The notes beneath the pieces were generated by a model. The model had not been told where the DNA came from. It did no database searches and saw only the letters and a list, made by a program, of their open reading frames with translations. Below are positions 2,924 through 64,000 of a stretch of 64,000 bases of DNA, in pieces. The position numbers and the translations under genes are program-made. Source of the DNA: Nostoc commune NIES-4072 (GTDB lineage: Bacteria > Cyanobacteriota > Cyanobacteriia > Cyanobacteriales > Nostocaceae); the NCBI RefSeq assembly GCF_003113895.1, contig NZ_BDUD01000001.1, positions 1,959,821-2,023,820 on the forward strand, in the 5' to 3' direction. The number at the start of each line of letters is the position of its first letter. The stretch's first letter is position 1.

Positions 2924-3745
2924 ATGACAATTGCTACCTCAACTAAACCTCAAATTAACTGGGTTAATACCCTGTTCTTCATTGCACTGCACATCGGCGC
3001 TTTATTTGCCTTTGTTCCTGGTAACTTTAGCTGGACGGCAGTTGGTGTGGGTTTCTTGCTGTATTGGGTGACTGGCGGCTTAGGCGTTACTCTAGGATTT
3101 CATCGCCTTGTCACCCACCGCAGTTTTCAAACTCCCAAGTGGCTAGAGTATCTTTTGGTTTTCTTTGGAACACTCTCGTGTCAAGGAGGCCCTATTGAGT
3201 GGGTCGGGACACATCGCATTCATCATCTAAACTCTGATACTGACGCTGATCCCCATGACTCTAATAAAGGCTTCTGGTGGAGCCACATGGATTGGCTGAT
3301 TCATTATTGTCCCGCTCACGCTGATGTTCCTCGTTTCACCAAAGACATTGCCGAAGACCCAGTTTATCAGTTTTTAGAAAAATATTTCATTTTGATCCAG
3401 GTTGCTCTAGGCGTATTGCTTTTACTTCTGGGTGGCTGGCCCTTTGTTATTTGGGGAATTTTTGTTCGCATTGTCTGGGTTTATCACTGCACCTGGTTGG
3501 TGAACAGCGCTACTCATAAGTTTGGCTATCGGAGCTATGATTCTGGTGATAGATCGACTAATTGCTGGTGGGTAGCCGTACTAGTTTTCGGTGAAGGCTG
3601 GCATAACAACCATCATGCTTTTCAATACTCAGCTCGTCATGGGCTGGAATGGTGGGAAATCGATTTAACCTGGATGACTGTTCAATTGCTGCAAGCAGTT
3701 GGTTTGGCTACTAATGTGAAGTTGGCCCCAATAAAAACTAGTTAG
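2924..3745 (+). CDS. desC: Delta-9 acyl-lipid desaturase DesC
   Basis: Introduces the first double bond at C9 of stearoyl chains already esterified to membrane glycerolipids, using ferredoxin and a di-iron centre. The three histidine boxes are visible: HRLVTH at 60-65, HRIHH at 97-101 and HNNHH at 227-231, between four hydrophobic segments. I start at the ATG at 2924, giving 273 residues; an ATG at 2867 in the same frame would add 19 basic residues foreign to the family. It is followed by a small hairpin and then desA, so the desaturase genes are clustered but probably separate transcripts. DesC acts before DesA and DesB in the pathway. Confidence 0.93.
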   Translation: MTIATSTKPQINWVNTLFFIALHIGALFAFVPGNFSWTAVGVGFLLYWVTGGLGVTLGFHRLVTHRSFQTPKWLEYLLVFFGTLSCQGGPIEWVGTHRIHHLNSDTDADPHDSNKGFWWSHMDWLIHYCPAHADVPRFTKDIAEDPVYQFLEKYFILIQVALGVLLLLLGGWPFVIWGIFVRIVWVYHCTWLVNSATHKFGYRSYDSGDRSTNCWWVAVLVFGEGWHNNHHAFQYSARHGLEWWEIDLTWMTVQLLQAVGLATNVKLAPIKTS

Positions 3746-3751
3746 GAGTAG

Positions 3752-3771
3752 AGACGCGATTAATCGCGTCT
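3752..3771. repeat. Perfect 20-bp hairpin repeat after desC
   Basis: AGACGCGATTAATCGCGTCT is a perfect palindrome seven bases after the desC stop. Close relatives occur twice in tandem at about 22396-22449, and a decayed one at about 57447-57470. It may act as a weak terminator (no long T run) and belongs to a dispersed hairpin family. Confidence 0.7.
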
Positions 3772-3965
3772 GTACAAAAGTTATGATGCGTAACGTTTTT
3801 AACTCATAACTCATCACTTTTAACTCCTTCCTTTTCAAAAAGCTATTTACTGGTGCGCTTGTGTCCGTTAGATTGCTATAATCCGAAGCGCTAATATTAA
3901 GAATTTTTGCGGCAAGTTACTTTTTTGGTGACTTGGTGGAGGAGTTTGTTGTTTCTCAGGTGTCC

Positions 3966-5018
3966 ATGACTACATCAATAATTAATAGCCAGAAACTAAG
4001 TGACGAGCCTAGTAATTCCGACTTTCGGCTCAAAGATATTGTTAAAACCCTGCCACGGGAATGTTTTCAGCAGAACCGTCGCAAAGCTTGGACACAAGTA
4101 CTGCTCAGTGTCTTGGCGGTTGGCTTGGGCTATTACAGCCTGATCGTTACTCCTTGGTTTCTCTTGCCCCTAGCTTGGGTTTTTACGGGCACTGCTTTAA
4201 CAGGTTTTTTTGTAATTGGGCATGATTGTGGTCACAGGTCTTTTGCCAAACGTCGTTGGGTGAATGATTTGGTGGGGCATTTCTTCATGATGCCGTTGAT
4301 TTACCCCTTTCACAGTTGGCGCATTAAGCATAATTATCACCATACTCATACCAACAAGCTGGATGAGGATAATGCTTGGCATCCAATTAGACCAGAAGTG
4401 TTTGAAGATTGGGATAAAATCCGGCAGTCTGCTTTTGAGTTGTTCATGCGTAAACGCCTCTGGTGGGTAGGTTCCATTGGACATTGGGCTGTGGTGCATT
4501 TTGATTGGCGGAACTTCAAAACGAAAGACCAATCGAGTATCAAGCTTTCTGTGGCTGTAGTAGTTGTGTTTGCGGCGATCGCTTTCCCACTTCTCATCGC
4601 CACAACTGGTATCTGGGGATTTGTCAAGTTTTGGCTAGTGCCCTGGATGATTTACCATTTTTGGATGAGTACTTTTACTATTGTTCACCACACTGCCGCA
4701 GATGTTCCTTTTGCGACAGCGAACAAGTGGAACGAAGCTTTAGCACAGCTAGCTGGCACTATTCATTGCGATTATCCGCGCTGGGTAGAAATCCTATGCC
4801 ACGATATCAATGTTCATGTCCCTCATCATATTTCCACTGCGATTCCTTCTTATAATTTGCGGCTAGCTTACAGCAGCATCAAAGAAAATTGGGAGCCTTA
4901 TCTGCATGATGAGTGTCAGTTTTCTTGGCCTTTAATGAAGCAGATTACAGACCAATGTCAACTATACACAACTGATGTTGGTTATAAGACTTTCAAGGAA
5001 TATTATACAGGGCGATAA
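3966..5018 (+). CDS. desA: Delta-12 acyl-lipid desaturase DesA
   Basis: Converts oleoyl to linoleoyl chains on membrane lipids; a di-iron, ferredoxin-dependent membrane enzyme. Histidine boxes are HDCGH at 86-90, HNYHH at 122-126 and HVPHH at 284-288. The start ATG at 3966 gives 350 residues, normal for DesA; a GTG/TTG start at 3933 would add 11 unlikely residues. It lies between desC and desB. A hairpin (ACGCTCT/AGAGCGT, 5039-5062) follows the stop and separates it from desB. In cyanobacteria desA is typically cold-inducible; I see no specific regulatory motif that proves this here. Confidence 0.93.
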
Positions 5019-8563: not shown

Positions 8564-9652
8564 ATGAAAATGGGGCTGAGAACGCGCCTATTTCTCTCCC
8601 ACTTAGTTGTAATGCTCGTGGGGGTAGCTAGTTTGGTGAGCATCAGCAAAATTTCTTCCCCTCGTTTGTTTGTACTGCATTTGGAACGATTAGAAAATCA
8701 GGGGTTTGACTTAATCGATGTTCGTACTGAATTGGTTGCAGGATTTGAACTTGCTTGGCAGCGAAGCACTATTTGGTCAGTCTTAGTCGGTACCACCGCC
8801 GCCGGAGGATTGAGTTACTGGGTGTCCAGACGGATTATGCAGAGGTTGACCGAGATGGAACAAATCACCCAAAAATTTGCTGCTGGTCAGATGGATGCAC
8901 GACTACCTATGTCTGACATTCCCGAACTTAATAGATTGGGTGCTAGTTTCAACCGGATGGCAGCCAGTTTAGAAGGGGTAGAAGCGCGGCGGCGAGAAGT
9001 GATTGGAGACATGACCCATGAATTACGGACACCGTTAACAGTGGTGCGTGGTTACTTGGAAGAATTGGCTGATGGGGAAATTGAAGCATCTCCTGAAATT
9101 TATCGGCGTTTAGCTAAAGAAACTAAGCGCTTAGAGCGATTGGTGAACGATTTACAAGAACTATCTAAGGCAGAAGCTGGTTATTTGCCAATTAATATCC
9201 AACGGGTAAATCTGCGTCCGTTATTAGAATCATTAGTGGAGAAATTTACCGACCAACTGTTGGAGGATGGGCCAGTTCTGGTATTGCAATGTCCATCTGT
9301 GCTGCCTCCTGTATTAGCAGATATTGACCGCACAGAACAGGTGTTGGTCAATTTGCTAGGTAATGCAGTGCGTTACACGAATGAAGGTTCAATTACCATT
9401 TGTGTTGGAACTGAAGGATCTCAACTCTGGATTGCGGTTATAGATACAGGTATTGGTATCGCTCCAGAAAATTTGCCTCATGTGTTTGAGCGCTTCTGGC
9501 GAGCCGATCAGTCGCGCGATCGCCATTCGGGAGGTACTGGTATTGGTTTAACTATTTCCCGTCGTTTGATTGAACTACAAGGCGGTCAGATTCAGGTAGA
9601 AAGTGAGTTGGGAGTTGGCAGTACGTTTCGGTTTTTTCTGCCTTTAGCTTGA
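8564..9652 (+). CDS. Membrane sensor histidine kinase (HAMP-HisKA-HATPase)
   Basis: 362 residues. Two hydrophobic segments, near 8-30 and 70-90, enclose a short periplasmic loop of only about 40 residues, so the sensor part is small. A HAMP domain follows (about 90-142), then the H-box MTHELRTPL with phospho-acceptor H152, the N-box VNLLGNAVRYT, and G-boxes DTGIGI and GGTGIGL. Directly coupled to the preceding regulator. The signal is unknown; a loop this short often means that membrane state or a partner protein is sensed. Confidence 0.9.
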   Translation: MKMGLRTRLFLSHLVVMLVGVASLVSISKISSPRLFVLHLERLENQGFDLIDVRTELVAGFELAWQRSTIWSVLVGTTAAGGLSYWVSRRIMQRLTEMEQITQKFAAGQMDARLPMSDIPELNRLGASFNRMAASLEGVEARRREVIGDMTHELRTPLTVVRGYLEELADGEIEASPEIYRRLAKETKRLERLVNDLQELSKAEAGYLPINIQRVNLRPLLESLVEKFTDQLLEDGPVLVLQCPSVLPPVLADIDRTEQVLVNLLGNAVRYTNEGSITICVGTEGSQLWIAVIDTGIGIAPENLPHVFERFWRADQSRDRHSGGTGIGLTISRRLIELQGGQIQVESELGVGSTFRFFLPLA

Positions 9653-9773
9653 GATAAAAGATTGACACAATGTAGTCACTGCTGTGTCATACCCAATTGC
9701 TAATTTGAAAGTATCCAAATTCTTTGTTTTTTGATGGATGCGGAAATTTTGGCAGTACATAGAGTCTAATATT

Positions 9774-9869
9774 ATGTCTACTTTTATTTTGGCTGCTTTT
9801 TTAGTTAGTTTACTCAGTGTTTCAGGTTATGCTGCGATCGCCTACCTGTTCCCTCAAAATCGTTCCTAA
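9774..9869 (+). CDS. Possible 31-residue single-span membrane protein
   Basis: ATG at 9774, stop at 9867-9869. The product starts MSTFILAAFLVSLLSVSGYA and ends in a polar PQNRS tail, so one transmembrane helix fills most of it. The size and shape resemble small subunits of photosynthetic or NDH complexes, but it matches none I know by sequence. There is no strong ribosome binding site. Could be chance; listed because it is short, cleanly hydrophobic and sits alone in a gene-free gap. Confidence 0.35.
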   Translation: MSTFILAAFLVSLLSVSGYAAIAYLFPQNRS

Positions 9870-9955
9870 GACTGACCAAATAACAATTTGCTATTCAATC
9901 TTAAAAAGGGATTGCAAAAATTTAGCAATAAATTCACGGTTCTTGGTTCGATGTC

Positions 9956-10627
9956 TTATTGATCAGCAGTGACGATCGCGATCGCAAAGCCATCATATCC
10001 TTTGCTGCCCACTGTCTGGATTGCCGTGGCGCAAACGCGCGGCTCAGAGGCGAGTAGTTCGTTGAAGCGACGTACTCCTTGGACGCTAGGATCGCTGCTG
10101 GTAGCATCAATCACTGTTCCGTTACGCACAACATTATCGGCAATGATTAGACTACCGCGACGGGAAAGCTTGAGCGCCCATCTGAAGTAATCTGGATTGT
10201 TTGGCTTGTCGGCGTCAATGAAGATTAGGTCAAATGTATGACCTTCGGCAGCAATCTGTGGCAACGTAGAGAGTGCCTGTCCGAGGCGCAGCTCAACAAT
10301 ATCGGACAGACCAGCGTGGGCGATGTTGGTGTGGGCGACTTCGGCGTGCTTTGGGTTGGCCTCCAGCGTAATCAGACGGCCGTCGCTAGGTAACGCCCGC
10401 GCTAGCCAGATGGTACTGTAGCCGCCCAGCGTGCCAATCTCTAGAATGGTTCGCGCCCCTTGAATTTGTGCCAACAGCAACAGCAGCTTGCCCTGGTTTG
10501 GCGAAACGTTATGCGGTGGTAATCCAGCTGCGGCGCTAGTCTGGAGCGCCGCATCCAGCGCAGGGTCGGGCGGTACAAGTAAATCGTTAAAGTAATGATC
10601 GACCGCAGTCCATTGCTCTTGAGTCAT
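9956..10627 (-). CDS. Class I SAM-dependent O-methyltransferase (CCoAOMT-like)
   Basis: 223 residues. The SAM-binding motif ILEIGTLGGYSTIWLA (about 60-75), the acidic motif LITLEANP, the DLIFIDADK loop (metal-binding aspartates of this class) and LIIADNVVRNG are all in order, as in the small-molecule catechol O-methyltransferases (Pfam Methyltransf_3). Substrate unknown. The gene is noticeably more GC-rich than its neighbours, which may point to transfer. It is followed upstream on the same strand by the dehydrogenase gene 43 bp away, so the two may be co-transcribed. Confidence 0.88.
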   Translation of the reverse strand: MTQEQWTAVDHYFNDLLVPPDPALDAALQTSAAAGLPPHNVSPNQGKLLLLLAQIQGARTILEIGTLGGYSTIWLARALPSDGRLITLEANPKHAEVAHTNIAHAGLSDIVELRLGQALSTLPQIAAEGHTFDLIFIDADKPNNPDYFRWALKLSRRGSLIIADNVVRNGTVIDATSSDPSVQGVRRFNELLASEPRVCATAIQTVGSKGYDGFAIAIVTADQ

Positions 10628-10670
10628 AAATTCTCGCTTTTTACCCTATCTATAAAAGAATTACTCAAGA

Positions 10671-11558
10671 TTAGGTGTCAGATATTGCTTCATTGGAAAG
10701 GATTGTAATGATTTCATCCAATGGGCGATCGCGATGGCATTCTTCTGGTGTTTCCTTACTCAAGGAGGTTTCTTTGACCAAGCGGTAAACGTCGGCTGCG
10801 CCGTAAAAAATCCTTTCAGTCAGACCTAACTCTTTAAAAGTTTCTGCAATCTCTTCCATTTCTCCTATCCAACGATGCGCTTTTGGTGTCATCGATGGAA
10901 TCGAACGGGTTAATATGCTAGCAAGTTCCTGTTGGCTACTAGACACTTCATCCCATAGTTGCTTATCCAATCCTAAACGATGGGCTGCTATTAGTAATTC
11001 TGTGCCGATTGCTGTAAGTCCTTTTGTCAGGGCTGCATAGGACATTTTCAAACCGGAAGCTTGACCAATTTCATCACCTATCACCCGCACATCCAAGCCA
11101 TGATCCCGCAGTTGTAGGAGTTGACTGGCTTGTTTTCCTGAAACATAAATGCGGGTGCGATTGGGAACTCGTGGTGGTGGGCCAATAATTGATGCATCTA
11201 CGAATGTTCCCCCAACTGATTCAATAAGTTGGCTGATACTAATGACTTTTTGGGGTGCGATCGCATTACAGTCAACATAGAGAATGGGTTTACCAACATT
11301 GCTGATCGCTTCAGCTACAAGATTCGCTGCTTCGCTGGCTGCTGCGGGAACTAGAACTGACAAGACTACATCAGATTCAATTACTAGTTGCGTGAGGGAA
11401 CCCACATCTTGAATGTTGGCTGCGGCTGCTAATTGCCGAGTTCGTTCACTGCGATTGTCTAGAGCAGCAATAGTTTTCAATCCATTTTGATTGAGAACAG
11501 CTGCGATCGCTTGTCCCATATCACCTGGACTTAAAATACCAATAGTTTGGATAGGCAT
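10671..11558 (-). CDS. NAD(P)-dependent dehydrogenase of the 6PGDH/3-hydroxyisobutyrate dehydrogenase superfamily with DUF1932
   Basis: 295 residues. An N-terminal Rossmann fold begins at once, with IGILSPGDMGQAIA as the dinucleotide loop; the central ASIIGPPPRVPNRTRIYVSG corresponds to the substrate-side segment of beta-hydroxyacid dehydrogenases. The C-terminal helical part, GLKMSYAALTKGLTAIGTEL onward, looks like DUF1932. The conserved active lysine of the family fits K in SGLKMSYAA. Substrate unknown. Convergent with nothing; lies upstream of the O-methyltransferase on the same strand. Confidence 0.82.
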   Translation of the reverse strand: MPIQTIGILSPGDMGQAIAAVLNQNGLKTIAALDNRSERTRQLAAAANIQDVGSLTQLVIESDVVLSVLVPAAASEAANLVAEAISNVGKPILYVDCNAIAPQKVISISQLIESVGGTFVDASIIGPPPRVPNRTRIYVSGKQASQLLQLRDHGLDVRVIGDEIGQASGLKMSYAALTKGLTAIGTELLIAAHRLGLDKQLWDEVSSSQQELASILTRSIPSMTPKAHRWIGEMEEIAETFKELGLTERIFYGAADVYRLVKETSLSKETPEECHRDRPLDEIITILSNEAISDT

Positions 11559-11929
11559 GGAAAGTTTTATATTTACTTTGTGGCTTACAAGTTAATTCAG
11601 GTAATTGAGCCTTAACAAAAAACTATAAATCGATACATATACCGTATTTAAATCAAACCACGGATAAGCTTAACAAGCAAGCTATCTGCTGAGAGATAGG
11701 AAGGAGGCAGGAGAACAGGGATTTTAATGAATTGCAATTAATAATTTTTTTGATAGCTCGGTCAATTACTGAAGATGAAGATTAGACAACTAATGGTTTA
11801 AAAGCTTTACAGGAGTTGGGATAGAAGCACTTTTTTGGAGCTGAGGAATTTTTACACTTACCCTTTTGCGCATTGTTTAGATTGAGAATAATAACACCGG
11901 ATGCAATACTGCGTAGGTTTCGCCTTGAG
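11559..11929. other. Intergenic, nothing recognised
   Basis: About 370 AT-rich bases between two genes of the same strand. I see no ORF with coding character, no repeat shared with the rest of the window and no convincing terminator. Confidence 0.5.
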
Positions 11930-13456
11930 TTAAAATTTCTGACCTGTAGTAACTTCAAATCTAACTTCTCCTTGGTTGCTAATTCCTAAGTCGCCTCGAA
12001 TCAGGCCAAAGGATGACTTGAATCGCAATCCTAAGCCGTAACCAAAGCCACTTCCAGGTTTGTCTCGTAGCACTCCTGGTTCTCCCAATACGGTTTCGCT
12101 AGACCCGAAATCTGAGGCGAGGTCAGTAAAGAGAACTCCTCCGATTGATTGTAAAATTGGAAAACGATATTCAATAGAAGCTAAACCATAACTGCGACCA
12201 CTGGCAACTTTACCATAACCGTAACCTCTGACAGAATCTAGCCCACCAATATTAAAGGCATCTGCTGGTGGAAAGTCTCCAATAGTCGTACCAATTTGTA
12301 AATTAATCGCCAACATTTCTGGATTGTCGGTTAGCCGACCATTCCCTATCCAACTGACTGGTAAATACTGAATATAGTCTCCCTGTAAGCGGTTGCTGGA
12401 AATGTTACCCAGTCCAATGGGAATCGCTTGTTCTGTGCTGAGGGTGAGGATTGATCCTTGAGTTGGATTGTCTTTGCGATCGCGTTGATCTTTAGACACA
12501 GCAAATGATACAGTAAATAGATCATCAATGCCAGTACCGCTCACAGATAGGGGACTCCCTAATCTATCCACTTGTACAACGTTATATTCTTGATCGCGTA
12601 GGCTAATCCGGGTATAGTTGAGAGCCACTGATGTATCCCACTCATCAAAAGCTCTTAAAAGTGCCACAGAACCACCAAACCTTCCTTCTCGCACTTTGTT
12701 ACCGTTTGACAATCTGATATCTTCGTTGAAGGTTCCTGATATATTTCGACTACGAAAACCTCTAATGCTATAGCCTAAGCGGTTTGGTTCTCCAGGACGA
12801 TAAGGACTAGTGAATTGACCATTAAACTGGATATCTTCACTGCTCAACTGCACAGTTGTATCTAATTTATCGTTAAGACCGCTAATATTTGCATCTTTGT
12901 AACCTACCCGCCCGTATAGCCCAACATCATCGTTATTTCCGCCTCCTAAGATTAAAGAAGGGAAGCTGCGCTCTTTGATTTTATAGATGATTTTAACACT
13001 AGAAGCATCTTGTTCTCGATCAACATTTACTTGATTAAATGACTCTAATCTCCTCAATCGTTGCAAGTCTGCTTGAAGTAAATCTTCACGGAATACCTGA
13101 CCAGGTTTGAGTTTCAGCAGACCAATGATAAAATCTGTCTGAGTCCGCCCTTTAATTGGCTGACCTTTATCATCAAGCGACTCACCTTTGCCATTAATAA
13201 AAAGAATTTCGATATCTTTGACAACTTTTTGGGAAAATTCAAGAGTCTGGTTATCTCCTGAAGTTGCTCCTATATAATTACCATATTTGGCATACTCTCC
13301 TATATGGATCGTAGCTTCCGGGCTAACAATACCACTAGATTCATCCTGAGTAGAAGATTGCGAGTCTGCAAGGGCCTCTGCATTTTTCCCACTCATTAAC
13401 ATTACTGCGATGCCTACGGCGGCAAGCAACGCAATTACAGTTATTTGAACTCGCAT
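11930..13456 (-). CDS. Omp85/BamA-superfamily outer-membrane protein
   Basis: 508 residues with an N-terminal hydrophobic segment (VIALLAAVGIAVMLMSG) that reads as signal peptide. A single POTRA-like region follows (about 80-165: KVVKDIEILFINGKG, GQVFREDLLQADLQRL), then a C-terminal beta-barrel with the alternating pattern of surface-antigen D15, including the SVRGYGYGKVASGRSYG motif typical of the lid loop, and a terminal aromatic residue. Full cyanobacterial Omp85 proteins carry three POTRA domains, so this is a shorter relative, perhaps a TamA-like or patatin-associated type. Role in outer-membrane biogenesis is inferred from family. Confidence 0.82.
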   Translation of the reverse strand: MRVQITVIALLAAVGIAVMLMSGKNAEALADSQSSTQDESSGIVSPEATIHIGEYAKYGNYIGATSGDNQTLEFSQKVVKDIEILFINGKGESLDDKGQPIKGRTQTDFIIGLLKLKPGQVFREDLLQADLQRLRRLESFNQVNVDREQDASSVKIIYKIKERSFPSLILGGGNNDDVGLYGRVGYKDANISGLNDKLDTTVQLSSEDIQFNGQFTSPYRPGEPNRLGYSIRGFRSRNISGTFNEDIRLSNGNKVREGRFGGSVALLRAFDEWDTSVALNYTRISLRDQEYNVVQVDRLGSPLSVSGTGIDDLFTVSFAVSKDQRDRKDNPTQGSILTLSTEQAIPIGLGNISSNRLQGDYIQYLPVSWIGNGRLTDNPEMLAINLQIGTTIGDFPPADAFNIGGLDSVRGYGYGKVASGRSYGLASIEYRFPILQSIGGVLFTDLASDFGSSETVLGEPGVLRDKPGSGFGYGLGLRFKSSFGLIRGDLGISNQGEVRFEVTTGQKF

Positions 13457-13833
13457 ATTTAAAATCCGTTAGTGTTATTAACTTTACCACGTAGAGCGGA
13501 TCTCTTGTGCGTAAGTTCTATATAAACCTTGCTATTGGATATCCCAAAATTCGGTTGTTTGCGCCAGTACTTAGTATAAACTGTCAGACTTTTTTCAGAT
13601 TGCGATGACCTCCAGTCGGTCGGAGACCATCGCCTCTGACGGACGGTTACGCCATCGTTCTTGATAAAGTCCTCAAAGGTTTAGAGGTTGCGCTGCTGTC
13701 AGAAAAAGGTATAGTCTAGAAAATAGAAACTCTTCCCGAATACTATGACAGAGGTTCTAAGCTCTTATTTAGCTTTTTTATAAAGAATTACAATGGAGAA
13801 TTGTTTGCTAAATCCACTGATAAATAAAAATCC
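13457..13833. other. Intergenic with a GC-rich imperfect hairpin
   Basis: Divergent promoter region. At about 13602-13633 GCGATG-ACCTCC faces GGAG-ACCATCGC, an imperfect hairpin of the dispersed Nostoc type. No gene is supported in the rest. Confidence 0.5.
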
Positions 13834-14301
13834 ATGAGAGAAAAACCTAAACAACAAATGCGTATGTGGGCGACCTTTTGTCATTTATCGGCTTTATTAG
13901 GGTGGATATTATTGGTTTTTTTAGTATTTATTGGTATTCCCTTATATTTACCTTTAAATCTTTTAGCCCCATTGATAATTTGGAGATTAAAAAAAACACA
14001 ATACCCCTGGATTGATTTCCAAGGTAAGGAATCTATAAATTTTCAAATTTCTTTAACATTATATACTTTATTTGTTATCGCTATATCCTTAGTTATATTA
14101 TTCACTAGGTTTAGTATTGCAGTAACTACAAATGTTTCAATTGATGAAATAAAAGACACTTTAGATAGCTTATTACTTATACTTATATCATTGATTTCAT
14201 TTAAACTTGTACTACAATCATTTTTAGTGAGTTTTGCCTCTATCAAAGCTTACAATGGTGAGCATTATCGTTATCCTTTTACAATTAGAGTTTTACGATA
14301 A
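13834..14301 (+). CDS. DUF4870 (Tic20-like) membrane protein
   Basis: 155 residues. Starts with a short charged segment, MREKPKQQMRMWATFCHLSAL, typical of DUF4870, then four hydrophobic segments with the family signature LAPLIIWRLKKTQYPWIDFQGKE split over residues 45-75. These small membrane proteins are distantly related to Tic20; their function is not established. Very AT-rich relative to neighbours. Monocistronic by spacing. Confidence 0.78.
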   Translation: MREKPKQQMRMWATFCHLSALLGWILLVFLVFIGIPLYLPLNLLAPLIIWRLKKTQYPWIDFQGKESINFQISLTLYTLFVIAISLVILFTRFSIAVTTNVSIDEIKDTLDSLLLILISLISFKLVLQSFLVSFASIKAYNGEHYRYPFTIRVLR

Positions 14302-14424
14302 AACAATGATTAAACCTCTGTTATTTAATATCTACAATTCTCAAATAAAGATTAAATATTTTAGATATGATAGATGAAATGATTTTATTAATTAAATTGG
14401 ATAATTAGAGGAGTATATAATGAT

Positions 14425-15522
14425 ATGATTGGGATTGCGATCGCAGGTACTGGATTTGGTCAAAAAGTCCACATCCCAGGATTCCAAGCACATCCTCAAA
14501 CTGAGGTAGTTGCTGTTTATCACCGAGATATAAATAAAGCTAGAGCTATAGCAGAATCCCATAAGATTCCCCACGCCTCCGATTCACTTACAGATATTGT
14601 GGCATTGCCAGAAGTACAAGCAGTTAGCATCTCTACGCCGCCTTTTTTGCACTATGAAATGGCAAAAACTGTATTGCAAGCTGGCAAACATTTATTATTA
14701 GAAAAACCGATAACTTTAAATGTAGTTGAGGCTAAAGAACTTTATCAATTAGCTAAAGAAAAAAGCGTTATTGTAGCTGTAGACTTTGAATTTCGCTTTG
14801 TACCAGGATGGCAGTTGTTTGCTGAATTATTGTCAGAAGATTATGTGGGTAAGTTACGCCTAATTAAAATTGATTGGTTGGGTTCTTCTCGTGCTGATAC
14901 TTCACGCCCTTGGAATTGGTATTCTGATAAGGAGAAAGGAGGCGGTGCATTGGGATCTTTGGGTTCCCACGCCTTCGATTATATTCACTGGTTATTCGGG
15001 TCAGTGCGTAGATTAAACGCTCATTTAACTACTGCTATTCCTACACGAGTTGACCCTGTTAGTGGAGAATCGAAGCCAGTGGATACAGATGACAACTGTA
15101 TATTAACGCTGGAATTAGCGAATGGTACACCTTGCCAACTTTCTATCAGTGCGGTTGTTCATGCACCAAGAACTCATTGGGTAGAAGTATATGGCGATCG
15201 CGGTACATTAATTGTGGGTAGTGAAAATCAAAAAGATTATATACATGGTTTTCGCGTTTGGGGTTCCCGCCCTGGTAAACCCCTAACGGAAATAGAAATA
15301 CCGAATCGGTTAATTTTTCCGAAAAATTATGCTGATGGACGCATTTCGGCATTTATCCGCGTAGTAGACCAATGGGTGCAAGGAATTGAGCGCAATCAGG
15401 AAATTATACCATCACTGCGAGAAGGAATTTATTCTCAGTTGTTGATGGATTTATCCCATGAATCGCATCAAAAAGCAAGTTGGGTAAATGTTCCAAGCTT
15501 GGGAGAATTTCTTAGCAACTAG
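14425..15522 (+). CDS. Gfo/Idh/MocA-family NAD(P)-dependent oxidoreductase
   Basis: 365 residues. Rossmann start IGIAIAGTGFGQKVHIPGF, then the family motif LLLEKPITLNVVEAKEL (EKP, near residue 94) and the GGGALGSLGSHAFDYIHWLF segment whose last histidine/aspartate residues belong to the active site. Start at ATG 14425, 11 bases after GAGGAG. Members oxidise sugars, inositols or bile-pigment-like compounds; the substrate cannot be told. An HNH endonuclease gene starts eight bases after the stop. Confidence 0.88.
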   Translation: MIGIAIAGTGFGQKVHIPGFQAHPQTEVVAVYHRDINKARAIAESHKIPHASDSLTDIVALPEVQAVSISTPPFLHYEMAKTVLQAGKHLLLEKPITLNVVEAKELYQLAKEKSVIVAVDFEFRFVPGWQLFAELLSEDYVGKLRLIKIDWLGSSRADTSRPWNWYSDKEKGGGALGSLGSHAFDYIHWLFGSVRRLNAHLTTAIPTRVDPVSGESKPVDTDDNCILTLELANGTPCQLSISAVVHAPRTHWVEVYGDRGTLIVGSENQKDYIHGFRVWGSRPGKPLTEIEIPNRLIFPKNYADGRISAFIRVVDQWVQGIERNQEIIPSLREGIYSQLLMDLSHESHQKASWVNVPSLGEFLSN

Positions 15523-15529
15523 AAATAAA

Positions 15530-15775
15530 ATGAGCAAAACTCTCCGTATTCGTATCCCGCCGGAAGTAAAGAAATACGTTTTTCAACGTGACAAATACCA
15601 GTGTCAAAGCTGCGGTAAAACTACTATAGAAACTAACCTCAGTATCGACCATATCATTCCCCTTGCCCGTGGAGGTCAACATGATATCAGCAATTTACAA
15701 ACCCTCTGTTTAACCTGCAATCAACAGAAAAAAGATAACATTAATCCCCACTTCCGGCGATATTTTCAGCTTTAG
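15530..15775 (+). CDS. HNH endonuclease domain protein
   Basis: 81 residues from the ATG at 15530, eight bases after the oxidoreductase stop. The zinc-coordinating CxxC pairs (CQSCGK and CLTCNQQ) and the HNH core SIDHIIPLARGGQHDISNLQTLC are intact. It is almost only the domain, as in the small HNH proteins common in cyanobacteria, which are often close to mobile elements, though none is visible here. A longer start at 15488 would overlap the preceding gene and is unlikely. Confidence 0.85.
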   Translation: MSKTLRIRIPPEVKKYVFQRDKYQCQSCGKTTIETNLSIDHIIPLARGGQHDISNLQTLCLTCNQQKKDNINPHFRRYFQL

Positions 15776-60060: not shown

Positions 60061-60717
60061 ATGAGTCAGTCGATCTCTGTATCCTGGTCAACGGTTGATG
60101 CAAAGTATCCAGAAGCATCAGTGCAAGTTGACAAACTCCCTAACCACGATTTAATTTTGCGCACTCAAGCGGGACTGCGACCAGATCGTGTTGCGTTTGC
60201 AGAACTATTACGCCGCTATCAAAGTCAAGTTGATAGAGTCCTATATCACCTGGCTCCAGATTGGGCTGACAGAGCCGATTTAGCTCAAGAAGTTTGGATT
60301 CGAGTGTATCGGAATATTAACCGATTACAAGAGCCTGCCAAATTTCGGGGCTGGTTAAGCCGCATTGCCACCAACTTGTTTTACGACGAGTTGCGGAAAC
60401 GCAAGCGGGTTATGAGTCCTTTGTCACTGGATGCTCCGCGTTCGTTAGAGGACGGCGAGATGGATTGGGAAATCGCTGGTGATACTCCCGGCCCTGAAGA
60501 AGAACTGACAACTAGAGAATTTTACGAACAACTGCGAGAAGCGATCGCGGATTTACCAGAGGTGTTTCGTACTACCATTGTCCTGAGAGAAATCGAAGGC
60601 ATGGCTTATGAAGAAATTGCCGAAATCACTGGAGTTTCTTTAGGAACTGTCAAGTCAAGAATTGCCAGAGCTAGATCGAGACTGCAAACTCACTTGCAGA
60701 ATTATCTAGACTCCTAA
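60061..60717 (+). CDS. ECF-type RNA polymerase sigma factor
   Basis: 218 residues. Region 2: FAELLRRYQSQVDRVLYHLA, ADLAQEVWIRVYRNINRL and FRGWLSRIATNLFYDELRKR; region 4: LREAIADLPEVFRTTIVLRE and YEEIAEITGVSLGTVKSRIA. About the size and order of SigG/RpoE-like ECF factors in Nostoc. Directs polymerase to stress promoters. The gene 157 bp downstream encodes a membrane protein that should be its anti-sigma factor. Which stress it answers cannot be read here. Confidence 0.92.
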   Translation: MSQSISVSWSTVDAKYPEASVQVDKLPNHDLILRTQAGLRPDRVAFAELLRRYQSQVDRVLYHLAPDWADRADLAQEVWIRVYRNINRLQEPAKFRGWLSRIATNLFYDELRKRKRVMSPLSLDAPRSLEDGEMDWEIAGDTPGPEEELTTREFYEQLREAIADLPEVFRTTIVLREIEGMAYEEIAEITGVSLGTVKSRIARARSRLQTHLQNYLDS

Positions 60718-60874
60718 TTTACAGTATCTTGGCTCTGCCCAATGGCAGAATTTAAGGATTGATTAAGAATTACACCAAAGACGTAGATCGCTTCTGCCCT
60801 GAGGAGGAAAATTGGCTAATTTCTCCGAATCTCCCGCCCAGTTTACCCGTGTATGAATTGGTAATAATGTTAAG

Positions 60875-61489
60875 ATGACTACTGATTCTCAGTTTTACGA
60901 CCGTTCTCCTTTGCAACTTCCTCAAGATTTGTCAGATGGAATGGCCAAGCATACCAATGAATCAACGGGTCTTATGGATATAGTGAAGCGCGATCGCTTC
61001 GAGTTATTGAGTGCTTATCTCGATGGTGAAGTTACAGCCACCGAACGCAAACAAGTAGAAGAATGGCTGGCAAATGATGCCTCAGTTCAATGCTTGTATG
61101 CCCGACTGTTAAAACTGCGCCAAGGCTTGCGGACTCTCCCAGTGCCCACAGCCCAACAGTCACCAGAAGTAACAGTTGGGCAAGTATTGACACGTTTGCG
61201 CCGCCGTTCCCGCTTAAACTGGATGGCGGGAGGTGCAGCTATTGCTGCTTGTATAATCGGTGCAGTATCTGGCTTAGTACCTATTGGTTCGAGAGTGCCG
61301 CGACTGGCACAACGACCACAAACAGAACCGATACAAACATCTTCAGCGTCTATAATTCCACCTTCCCCGTTGATGGTGGGGCTAAATAACCCGGTAATTG
61401 AAATTCCTAAAGCAGCAGTAGCTTCTCCAGAAAATCCAATTTATCCGCTACAGCCGCAACACCACGACTCCAAGCAAGACATAAACTAA
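60875..61489 (+). CDS. Anti-sigma factor (RseA-like, membrane-anchored)
   Basis: 204 residues. N-terminal cytoplasmic domain with RDRFELLSAYLDGEVTATER and VEEWLANDASVQCLYARLLKLRQ, the shape of an anti-sigma domain though without the zinc Cys/His motif; one transmembrane segment (LNWMAGGAAIAACIIGAVSGL, in part) near 113-133; a Pro/Ser-rich periplasmic tail. It would hold the sigma factor at the membrane until a signal releases it. Assignment rests on shape and on the neighbour. Confidence 0.8.
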   Translation: MTTDSQFYDRSPLQLPQDLSDGMAKHTNESTGLMDIVKRDRFELLSAYLDGEVTATERKQVEEWLANDASVQCLYARLLKLRQGLRTLPVPTAQQSPEVTVGQVLTRLRRRSRLNWMAGGAAIAACIIGAVSGLVPIGSRVPRLAQRPQTEPIQTSSASIIPPSPLMVGLNNPVIEIPKAAVASPENPIYPLQPQHHDSKQDIN

Positions 61490-61646
61490 TCGCAAAATTA
61501 ACAGTTTACAGATCGTAACTGTATGCGGTTAAACCACAGCTACTCCACCAGCCGTCAGGTTGGAGGATGCCTCCTAATTGGTCAACTCGATCTAAAGCCA
61601 TTAAATAAACCCAAGCCCAACCCAGAGAGAGCTACTGTGGCTCATA

Positions 61647-61679
61647 AACCTCGATAATTTGTCGATTATAGAGGTTTTC
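61647..61679 (+). terminator. Hairpin after the anti-sigma gene
   Basis: AACCTCGATAAT and ATTATAGAGGTT (one mismatch), six-base loop, then TTCT. About 160 bases after the stop; possible terminator. Confidence 0.45.
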
Positions 61680-61824
61680 TGGTGGTTGTTTATTCGGCTG
61701 CTAATCTTCCAGCACATCTAGTTCACTTAAAATCCTTGGGTTGGAAAAAGAGAGTAAATATCCGTGAACTTGGCTATCTCCTAGCGCTATTGCTGGTAGC
61801 CCATTGGCAAAGCTGTAAAAGTAT

Positions 61825-62409
61825 AAAAAAGTTATACAATTTTAAGTGCTAGAACCATTATATTACCGTTAACATTAATACTGATCTCCAAAAATAAAGT
61901 TATACACTTTATCTAAAATTACTAAAATTAACAAATAAAAAAGTTGTACAATTTTGCAGTTTATAACCCCTATATTAGGGTTGGCATTCACGCGACTTAC
62001 AAAAATAAAGTTGTACAATTTTCTAAAAATCGTCATATTGATAAATAAAAAAGTTGTACAATTGCTCAAAAGCTAGTTTTGTAAAAGATTAGAATTATTT
62101 ACTACAAGATTCAATGGCGATCGCATGTCTCGCAAACTCAAGCTGTTAATTCAGCTTTGCACTGAGAATGCGATCACACTCTATTTTATTTTACCTATAG
62201 CCAGTAGCATTGAGCGATCGCACCGCCAAATGCCTTCCCCTGTCAATCTGCCCAATCTTTACACAGTTGTAAACAACTAAAAAAGTTGTACAATTAGCGC
62301 TGCTACAAGCACTATTATATCGTTAGCTACTGATAAGTTTTGAAAAAATAAAGTTGTACAATTTCATCATGCTAGCATTCAAAAACAAATAAAAAAGTTG
62401 TACAACTTT
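61825..62409. repeat. Array of eight palindromic boxes (AAAGTTGTACAATT)
   Basis: The G of the box GTT(G/A)TACAATT falls at 61831, 61899, 61943, 62010, 62053, 62285, 62353 and 62397. Spacings are 68, 44, 67, 43, then 232, then 68, 44. Each box has an A-rich left shoulder: AAATAAAAAAG at 61943, 62053 and 62397, AAAATAAAG at 61899, 62010 and 62353. The core TTGTACAA is a perfect palindrome. No ORF of coding character lies within; the minus-strand ORF at 61875-62069 merely translates the boxes. Confidence 0.85.
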
Positions 62410-62586
62410 GCAAACGACTTTCCTGTAAGGATTTGGGAATATTTGCTCCAAAGTTTAGTGGCGATGCCTACGGCGGGCTGCGCCTACGCATTCCAAGTAC
62501 AAAGCTGAATCAACAGCTTGAGTTTTGAGAGATGCGATCGCACTTTATTTCACTTTACCTGTAGCCGATAGCATGGAGCAATCACT
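62140..62586. repeat. Diverged direct repeat flanking the second half of the box array
   Basis: 62164-62222 and 62527-62586 are about 80-85% alike (ATGCGATC-CACT-TATTT, TTTACCT-TAGCC, TAGCAT-GAGC-ATC). Each is preceded by a hairpin with arms AAGCTG/CAGCTT (62140-62157; 62502-62519). A GC-rich dispersed repeat sits at 62460-62489. No gene is evident in 61490-63107 as a whole. Confidence 0.6.
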
Positions 62587-63107
62587 TAACTCTAAAAACT
62601 GATTCATTTTATGATTGCTGTCCAAGTAAGAATGTTGATACTTTTCACCTACTCCAACATTTCTAGTTGTGTTTGGCGCAGTGCCTTACTTCGTCCCTTA
62701 TTGTCTAGTAATTTTTGTAGTTGCAAGGTGATGAGAGAATGAGGGTTTCAGCCGTCTTTGTTAGGACTTTCGATCATGAACAGAAGCGATCACTCTGAAG
62801 TCTACCCAGAACAAAATTGCTTGAAACGCATATTACAAGCTCATTTCAGTTCCATGTATTCCCAAGTGTAAATGGAGGACTGGTACGCTTGTGGAAAACT
62901 TGTTGGTCTATGAGATTCTCTTACCGTAAATAATAAAGTTTGGTATAAAAACGACAACCACACCTCACTTTTTAAGTACAATGATTGTATAATTTATTAT
63001 GGTTGTGAAAGTATGAAAGATTGTACTGACCAAACCATGAGTGTATCTAATAGCTCGTCTATAAAAGCATAAATACACACAATAAGATCAAAGTACTTAA
63101 AATTGCA

Positions 63108-64000
63108 ATGGCAAATTACAGAGAGTGGAATCAATCGCTTATATTTTATTTTACCACTGGCTTGCCACGGGGTAAAAGAGTTTATTTAAGTGTTGACAGT
63201 GAAATCTTAGAGCAAATTGGTCAGAAATTTAACCAAAAAATTGAAGATAGTAATTGGAGTGATGACTTCCGTAGAGCCGTAAGAGAAGAAGTTGTCACAC
63301 AAGGACGAGTTAATTTGGCTAAATTGCAGGGACGTAATTTAGACGGCTTACCGGAAGGAGTTGCTTTTTTAGGTGCAATGGTTCTGGCAGCCAATGAAAT
63401 GGTAGATGAAGAGGAAATCTCAGAAGAGAACTATTTTAAGCGTCTAAAAGCAGTATTAGGTTTGCCAACATCAGAAAATGGTCGTCCGCCAGGTATGAAG
63501 TTTGGTAAACAAGGAGAAGAACCCTTATGGGAAGACTGGAATCTTTGGTTAATGATAAATGGATTCATGCCTTCAGCACATCGAGGTTGCGGAGGAAGAA
63601 TCTATATTAATTATTCAATTTCTCAATCTCTACTTCGTCGTACAGATAAAAACCGACTTGTACAACTGTTTAATGAGAAACAATGGACAGCGCAGTGGGA
63701 TGCCATGACTCTGTTTGCTGGTGTGAGACGAGAAGCGCAGCGACTCTCTACACATCTCAAACAATTGCTAACTGATAACAGGGAACGCTATGAAGCAGTA
63801 GCCGAATCTATTCACGAAGTTTACCAGCAGTGGCAAGCAGAAGGACGGCCAGCAGTAGTAAGAGCAGAAGTACGTAATTGGAGCCGTAACATATTTGCTG
63901 GTTTATATCGCACAGAAGACCCGTTTTTTGGTGATGTTAATTACTATCATTATCCAAAAAAAGTGCGGGGATGGGAGTTAAACACTATAAAAATCCAGTA
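63108..64000 (+). CDS. Large unrecognised protein, 5' end only
   Basis: ATG at 63108; the frame is open to the window end, giving 297 residues with clear coding character. Soluble, no signal or membrane helix. Segments: MANYREWNQSLILFYFTTGL, PRGKRVYLSVDSEILEQIG, LDGLPEGVAFLGAMVLAANEM, NGRPPGMKFGKQGEEPLWED, INYSISQSLLRRTDKNRLVQ, WTAQWDAMTLFAGVRREAQR, then NWSRNIFAGLYRTEDPFFGD. I do not recognise the family. Its length and position after a long non-coding stretch suggest the first gene of an operon that continues beyond the window. Confidence 0.85.
   Translation, partial: MANYREWNQSLIFYFTTGLPRGKRVYLSVDSEILEQIGQKFNQKIEDSNWSDDFRRAVREEVVTQGRVNLAKLQGRNLDGLPEGVAFLGAMVLAANEMVDEEEISEENYFKRLKAVLGLPTSENGRPPGMKFGKQGEEPLWEDWNLWLMINGFMPSAHRGCGGRIYINYSISQSLLRRTDKNRLVQLFNEKQWTAQWDAMTLFAGVRREAQRLSTHLKQLLTDNRERYEAVAESIHEVYQQWQAEGRPAVVRAEVRNWSRNIFAGLYRTEDPFFGDVNYYHYPKKVRGWELNTIKIQ

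Follow-up and report, generated by a model that had tools for sequence, protein, structure and literature searches.

Here we analyse a stretch of 64,000 nucleotides from Nostoc commune NIES-4072, referred to below as the window, in which a set of regularly spaced direct repeats lies between the remnant of a broken gene and a gene that runs off the window (Table 1). The repeats are eight boxes of the form AAAGTTRTACAATT, six of them exact and two with one mismatch, and each is read on the plus strand by its A-rich shoulder. The steps from box to box are 68, 44, 67 and 43 bp in the first group and 68 and 44 bp in the second. This arrangement, reported in a preliminary description of the sequence, was borne out and exceeds chance: with up to two mismatches allowed, the window holds 16 box matches against 2.2 expected, a number reached by none of 100 shuffles. 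The same description proposed a genome-wide search as a check, and this gave 25 matches with at most one mismatch in the 8.2-Mb genome, compared with 11 for a reversed control pattern. Nine of the 25 fall in the array, where one palindromic box is counted twice, and the remaining 16 are single and scattered; the array is thus present once in the genome. The 1.6-kb region around the boxes had also been described as non-coding, which stands except for approximately positions 61509-61813, where the minus-strand gene remnant lies.

Table 1. Features of the window at and around the box array.
Feature	Position in window	Strand	Basis
3' part of broken gamma-glutamylcyclotransferase-like (GGACT) gene	61509..61813	-	tblastn with intact G147 protein
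Putative left end L0: TGT terminus 61814, boxes 61828, 61896, 61940 (68- and 44-bp steps)	61814..61953	+	
Putative left end L1: boxes 61940 (common to L0), 62007, 62050	61940..62063	+	
Inner flank of L1, also in G145	62064..62172	+	blastn
Putative left end L2: TGT terminus 62268, boxes 62282, 62350, 62394; youngest element	62268..62407	+	
Inner flank of L2, resembling relatives	62408..62583	+	blastn to L056
DruF-like first cargo gene, 566 aa in full, runs off the window	63108..64000	+	PADLOC 1.5e-18

The boxes form three triads, designated L0, L1 and L2. The triads of L0 and L2 are complete, and in both the first box starts 14 bp inside a TGT. L1 borrows its first box from L0, and its own TGT terminus is missing in the window's genome and still present in the relative G145 (genomes are designated here by G numbers and compared stretches by three-digit L numbers). 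The ends of Tn7-like transposons usually finish in TGT/ACA (PMC11406308, PMC8649781), and the terminus of L0, TGTAAAAGTATAAAAAAGTT, is similar to those of relatives. In an alignment of the triads with left ends of 12 relatives, from which G145 was left out, the boxes and termini were the most conserved parts and the sequence between boxes was less conserved. L2 was 93% identical to the left end of G116, 86% to that of G124 and 88% to G153 over 458 bp, and L1 was 85-87% identical to the left ends of G133 (C257), G131 and G122; L0 reached at most 72% identity to any of the 12 aligned relatives. In blastn searches, window positions 62268-62583 were 84% identical to L056 (query, window 60701-63100), and G145 3715-4091 was 82% identical to window 61813-62172, covering L0 and L1. 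The L2 triad was not found in G145, where 996 bp separate glmS from an anti-sigma gene, an interval that contains L0, L1 and an AAAG-type right end with degenerate boxes. A link of the array to the sigma/anti-sigma genes upstream of it was also considered and rejected, as neither gene had a match outside the window among 32 array loci.

Tandem small-RNA genes with a 111-nt period, one of the readings first offered for the array, would suit the 112-bp offset between the L0 and L1 units, and the minus strand does fold slightly better than shuffled sequence (8 of 200 shuffles were as good). The folding is weak, however (z -1.04 and -1.98), the array contains no match to an Rfam RNA family, and conservation is lower between the boxes than in them, all of which leaves this reading with scarcely any probability.

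The gene remnant at the outer side of L0 retains residues 47-151 of a 151-aa GGACT protein, at 80% identity to the intact protein of G147 (Pfam PF06094, 4e-22); the tblastn alignment, at 61509-61820, extends six bases past the TGT terminus of L0. G145 keeps residues 84-151 of the same protein, and this second break point is again flush with the TGT terminus. That the gene breaks at the terminus in both genomes points to rearrangement at a transposon end. In the DNA read, the GGACT-anti-sigma neighbourhood of G147 is free of any element. No clean empty site for the window's island was found, as G145 carries a reduced element and G147 has glmS on a separate contig.

The glmS gene of the window's genome lies on the minus strand 21 kb beyond the array (C1:2042863-2044749). 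Beside it are three minus-strand boxes at 20-bp steps (2042767-2042807; L190 2767-2820), a right end that reads TGTGGAGGAATAAT and then three TCGGYTRAACAATT boxes, one of them with one mismatch, so that right-end and left-end boxes are unlike. Fragments of tnsA and tnsB adjoin this right end on the minus strand and are, as DNA, 97.5-99.5% and 98.4% identical, respectively, to G124; as protein, the tnsA fragment is 59% identical to G065. Identity to the CRISPR-associated transposon (CAST) of G124 is 85-99% for the right-end fragments and a stretch deeper in the island. When the island was compared with G124 and G016, both as DNA and in translation, matches appeared only on either side of the stretch where most of tnsB, tnsC, tniQ, cas and tnsD would lie, these being absent from the island. 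Since the cas/tniQ stretch is missing between G124-like flanks, the island is a deletion derivative rather than a CAST. Furthermore, a search for TnsB in the window's genome gave one weak fragment match and no intact cognate protein, and the ends are therefore probably relics whose boxes probably have no resident partner protein. The element of G153 aligns with the island in pieces, namely the right end at 83%, 7.5 kb at 91%, the DruF region at 83% and the L2 end at 88%. It has its right end at glmS and its left end 43 kb on, is longer than the element in the window's genome, and bears the same Druantia-like cargo.

To place these triads among relatives, 217 genomes of the family were screened with a pattern of two boxes at 20-50 bp gaps. 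Paired boxes were present in 17 genomes, with 20 matches in all, and the reversed control pattern gave none. Fourteen matches are of left type (43-45-bp steps) and five of right type (20-bp steps); the other one, a 36-bp step within a 1569-aa frame of G102, is probably a chance match. A third box lies 67-70 bp outside in 13 of the 14 left-type matches. In the exception, G135, the TGT terminus is joined directly to the middle box (L184, near 5085), as if the outer and middle boxes had recombined in a natural collapse between boxes. The hosts of the arrays belong to Nostoc and other Nostocales. In a relaxed scan for triads, reversed-sequence controls gave none in 347 kb and one in 199 kb, the latter also with a wide second pattern. 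A box scan of public genomes gave 12 cyanobacterial stretches among 80 of 99, partly from the same genomes as the family set, and these 12 were included in the comparison of array loci. Also, many Bacteroidaceae contigs stood among the matches listed (e.g. L068-L073), with box pairs of the same core that are readable on both strands.

Eight of the 14 left-type matches are on the same contig as glmS, 0.2 to 32 kb away, and three were unplaced. The other three (G122 and two in G133), whose contigs lack glmS, abut a hairpin which, by eye, is like the hairpin that follows glmS at unoccupied sites; such a hairpin abuts four of 13 left ends, the fourth being that of G131. Right-type triads are directly 3' of glmS in four of five cases (G016, G042, G065 and G184), and that of G015 directly follows a 93-aa frame. 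The genes tnsA, tnsB and tnsC and then a tniQ-like gene come after four of the five, with tnsB in two frames in G042; in G184 the right end is present, but a tns match is absent in 60 kb. In G087 a left end is 8.9 kb away from glmS, and no right end is visible 3' of the gene. The gene that holds the right ends of G015 and G134 (L169, L284), after its first ~93-105 codons, we take to be comM. A role of comM as the target of related elements has been described (PMC10293859).

Pfam assigned the neighbours of the right ends to TnsA (1.7e-23), TniB/AAA (TnsC) and the Mu-transposase C-terminal domain, and found TnsD (6e-127) and TniQ in the elements of relatives, in which PADLOC identified Cas6, Cas8b, Cas7b, Cas5b and TniQ_IB. 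The 34-kb element of G016 runs in the order glmS, GTAAT, TGT, right triad, tnsABC, TniQ, Cas6, Cas8b, Cas7b, Cas5b, TnsD, cargo, inverted left triad, ACA, GTAAT, with the exact 5-bp duplication GTAAT at both sides. The 20-bp-step and the spaced arrays, both present in G016, are thus the two ends of one element. G124 carries TnsA, TnsB, TnsC, TniQ, Cas6, Cas8b and Cas7b as well as a second TniQ-domain protein.

It had been suggested that the array might be an iteron-type origin or a partition site, which would here belong to an integrated plasmid. Regular direct repeats with a palindromic core are in keeping with such a site, and the 20-bp right-end triads do look iteron-like. Because TnsA, TnsB, TnsC and TniQ-like genes stand beside four of the five 20-bp triads, and because the arrays are located at TGT termini beside glmS, we consider an origin or partition site extremely improbable: among the neighbours identified, those that recur are glmS and the tns genes.

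The elements of the relatives can instead be matched to known systems. Type I-B1 CASTs of cyanobacteria combine a glmS-targeting TnsD with TniQ and a type I-B Cascade (PMC11406308). This agrees with the complete set of TnsA, TnsB, TnsC, TniQ, Cas6, Cas8b, Cas7b, Cas5b and TnsD at glmS in G016, with the tns, TniQ, Cas6, Cas8b and Cas7b set of G124, and with the spaced left end, close-set right end and TGT/ACA termini of the relatives. The window's genome is unlike these CASTs in having the ends and tnsA/tnsB fragments only, with cas and tniQ not found, in carrying three stacked left ends, and in having right-end boxes that differ from the left-end boxes. Arrays of TnsB sites are found at Tn7-like ends, with Tn7 itself having three on the left and four on the right, and in many such elements one end has overlapping sites and the other spaced ones, the overlapping end being nearest the attachment site (PMC11406308, PMC8649781). 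Tn7 shares with the elements described here the glmS attachment site, a right end beside glmS, three spaced left sites and, in G016, the 5-bp duplication that is typical of Tn7-like insertion (PMC11406308, PMC8649781). It differs at the right end, which consists of four overlapping 22-bp sites in Tn7 and of three sites 20 bp apart here. In another CAST, the spacing of sites follows the helical pitch (PMC10201428), which would account for box spacings near multiples of the helical turn.

The DruF-like gene that follows the array is itself followed, outside the window, by DruL-like and DruE-like genes. PADLOC scored the DruF-DruL-DruE-like set (L046 129-8958, window 63108 onward) at 3.4e-20 for DruF, 2.7e-21 for DruL and E=0 for DruE. 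The preliminary description had raised the possibility that the array is a repressor platform for the gene at 63108, that is, an operator array on which a regulator represses the Druantia-like operon. The L2 boxes are indeed ~700 bp upstream of this gene and in the same orientation, and boxes are retained upstream of DruF genes that are 93% (G153) and 82% (G104) identical. We therefore compared the relatives of DruF, which are present in 16 of the 217 family genomes (E ≤1e-10). Boxes in register were found upstream of DruF in three, the window's genome (G000), G153 and G104. Each of the three belongs to an element whose right end is at glmS, and the position of the gene in G153 and G104, inside that element and close to an L2-type end, is that seen in the window. 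For the other 13, in-register boxes were not seen in the upstream DNA examined, which was at most 1.5 kb, or up to 8 kb for G029, G165 and G181. Conversely, DruF is beside an array in one of the 17 array genomes (G000), the DruF of G065 being on another contig, and among the 32 array loci compared, some of which are the same locus twice, it matched two, both of them the window itself. These counts make an operator very unlikely, and the occurrence of boxes near DruF in only the glmS elements is explained by co-transposition. Defence systems have been reported as cargo of Tn7-like elements (PMC8649781); Druantia is not mentioned in the portion of that paper's main text available to us.

Further along L046, at 9392-15686, there are four minus-strand genes of 501, 853, 277 and 472 aa. 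The 472-aa protein has a GNAT domain, and its second half presumably resembles tRNA-guanine transglycosylase, for which Pfam, PADLOC and NCBIfam gave no match. A 121-aa frame at L046 17026-17391 contains MIVQDEFDNQASAQ, has no Pfam match and has look-alikes after tnsD in G016 and G124; it may be a passenger conserved among these elements.

In the window's genome, the flanks of L0, L2 and the right end do not match one another as a 5-bp target-site duplication. One would expect its absence for stacked, partly deleted elements, yet it counts as a miss. Nine relatives, excluding G087, were read at both ends. The duplication was exact in one of them (G016), off by one base in G131, and not found in G124, G153, G104, G125, G190, G037 and G083, which suggests that many islands are composite or rearranged. 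In three of the 13 left ends with a printed outer flank (G124, G016 and G190), another right end, degenerate in G016, is located 5 or 6 bp outside the left end, as in adjacent or nested Tn7-like insertions. Insertion beside an existing Tn7-like element may give multiple left and right ends (PMC8649781). The window is unlike these cases in that no right end was seen between its stacked left ends and in that L0 and L1 are fused at one box. Additionally, at least two right-end boxes at 20-bp steps, with up to three mismatches per box, were present in 10 of the 30 glmS loci inspected (of 53 in the genus), so occupation of the glmS site is common.

We conclude, with a probability of roughly 95%, that the array represents the stacked left ends of three Tn7-like transposons, of the type I-B CAST kind, which inserted at the glmS site one after another and were afterwards partly deleted. 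At the locus there are TGT termini, spaced sites in the same orientation, an inverted, close-set right end at glmS, and tnsA/tnsB fragments beside that right end; the 5-bp duplication, and Cas6-Cas8b-Cas7-Cas5 with TniQ/TnsD in the element, were not found in the window's genome. The array had been said to match no standard category, but it most likely consists of the ends of a known kind of mobile DNA. The more general idea, that a multimeric protein binds DNA at arrayed sites, does fit, as the boxes look, from their sequence, like sites for the TnsB transposase.

According to this model of stacked transposon ends, one TnsB protomer would bind each TTGTACAA box, the left end would be marked by three spaced sites and the right end by three at 20-bp steps, and these unequal layouts would let the transposase tell the ends apart and pair them. 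The simplest order of insertion, given that L2 aligns with the rest of the island in G153 and that L0 and L1 are common to G145, is L0 and L1 first and the L2 element afterwards. The fusion of L0 and L1 may have come about by recombination or deletion at a box, similar to the collapse in G135, and the ends would now be inactive.

Within one branch, the transposase sites may not be the same at the two ends, with AAAGTTRTACAATT on the left and a partly degenerate TCGGYTRAACAATT on the right, both read by a single TnsB, a proposal to which we give even odds. G124, G153 and G104 each have near-full-length matches to tnsA and tnsB, a right end of TCGGYTRAACAATT type at glmS and an L2-type left end; the left end of G104 is without the inner box, and in G153 tnsC is in two pieces and the right-end boxes have up to two mismatches. 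The window's genome has this combination of ends as well, and its island and the G153 element align at both ends. Exact pairs of TCGGYTRAACAATT occur in 4 of the 217 genomes, with partly degenerate forms in G153 and G104. No left end built of the TCGG box was found in the islands of G124 and the window's genome, nor in the G153, G125 and G155 stretches.

These findings define, from sequence alone, the ends of a family of glmS-associated CASTs found in Nostoc and its relatives, and provide a box that detects decayed copies without any transposase gene. The unlike boxes of the right and left ends bear on how TnsB distinguishes the two ends and, if a single TnsB does read both motifs, they could help to fix the orientation of insertion. 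The analysis also portrays the glmS site as one at which elements accumulate and decay, with Druantia-like defence cargo left behind.
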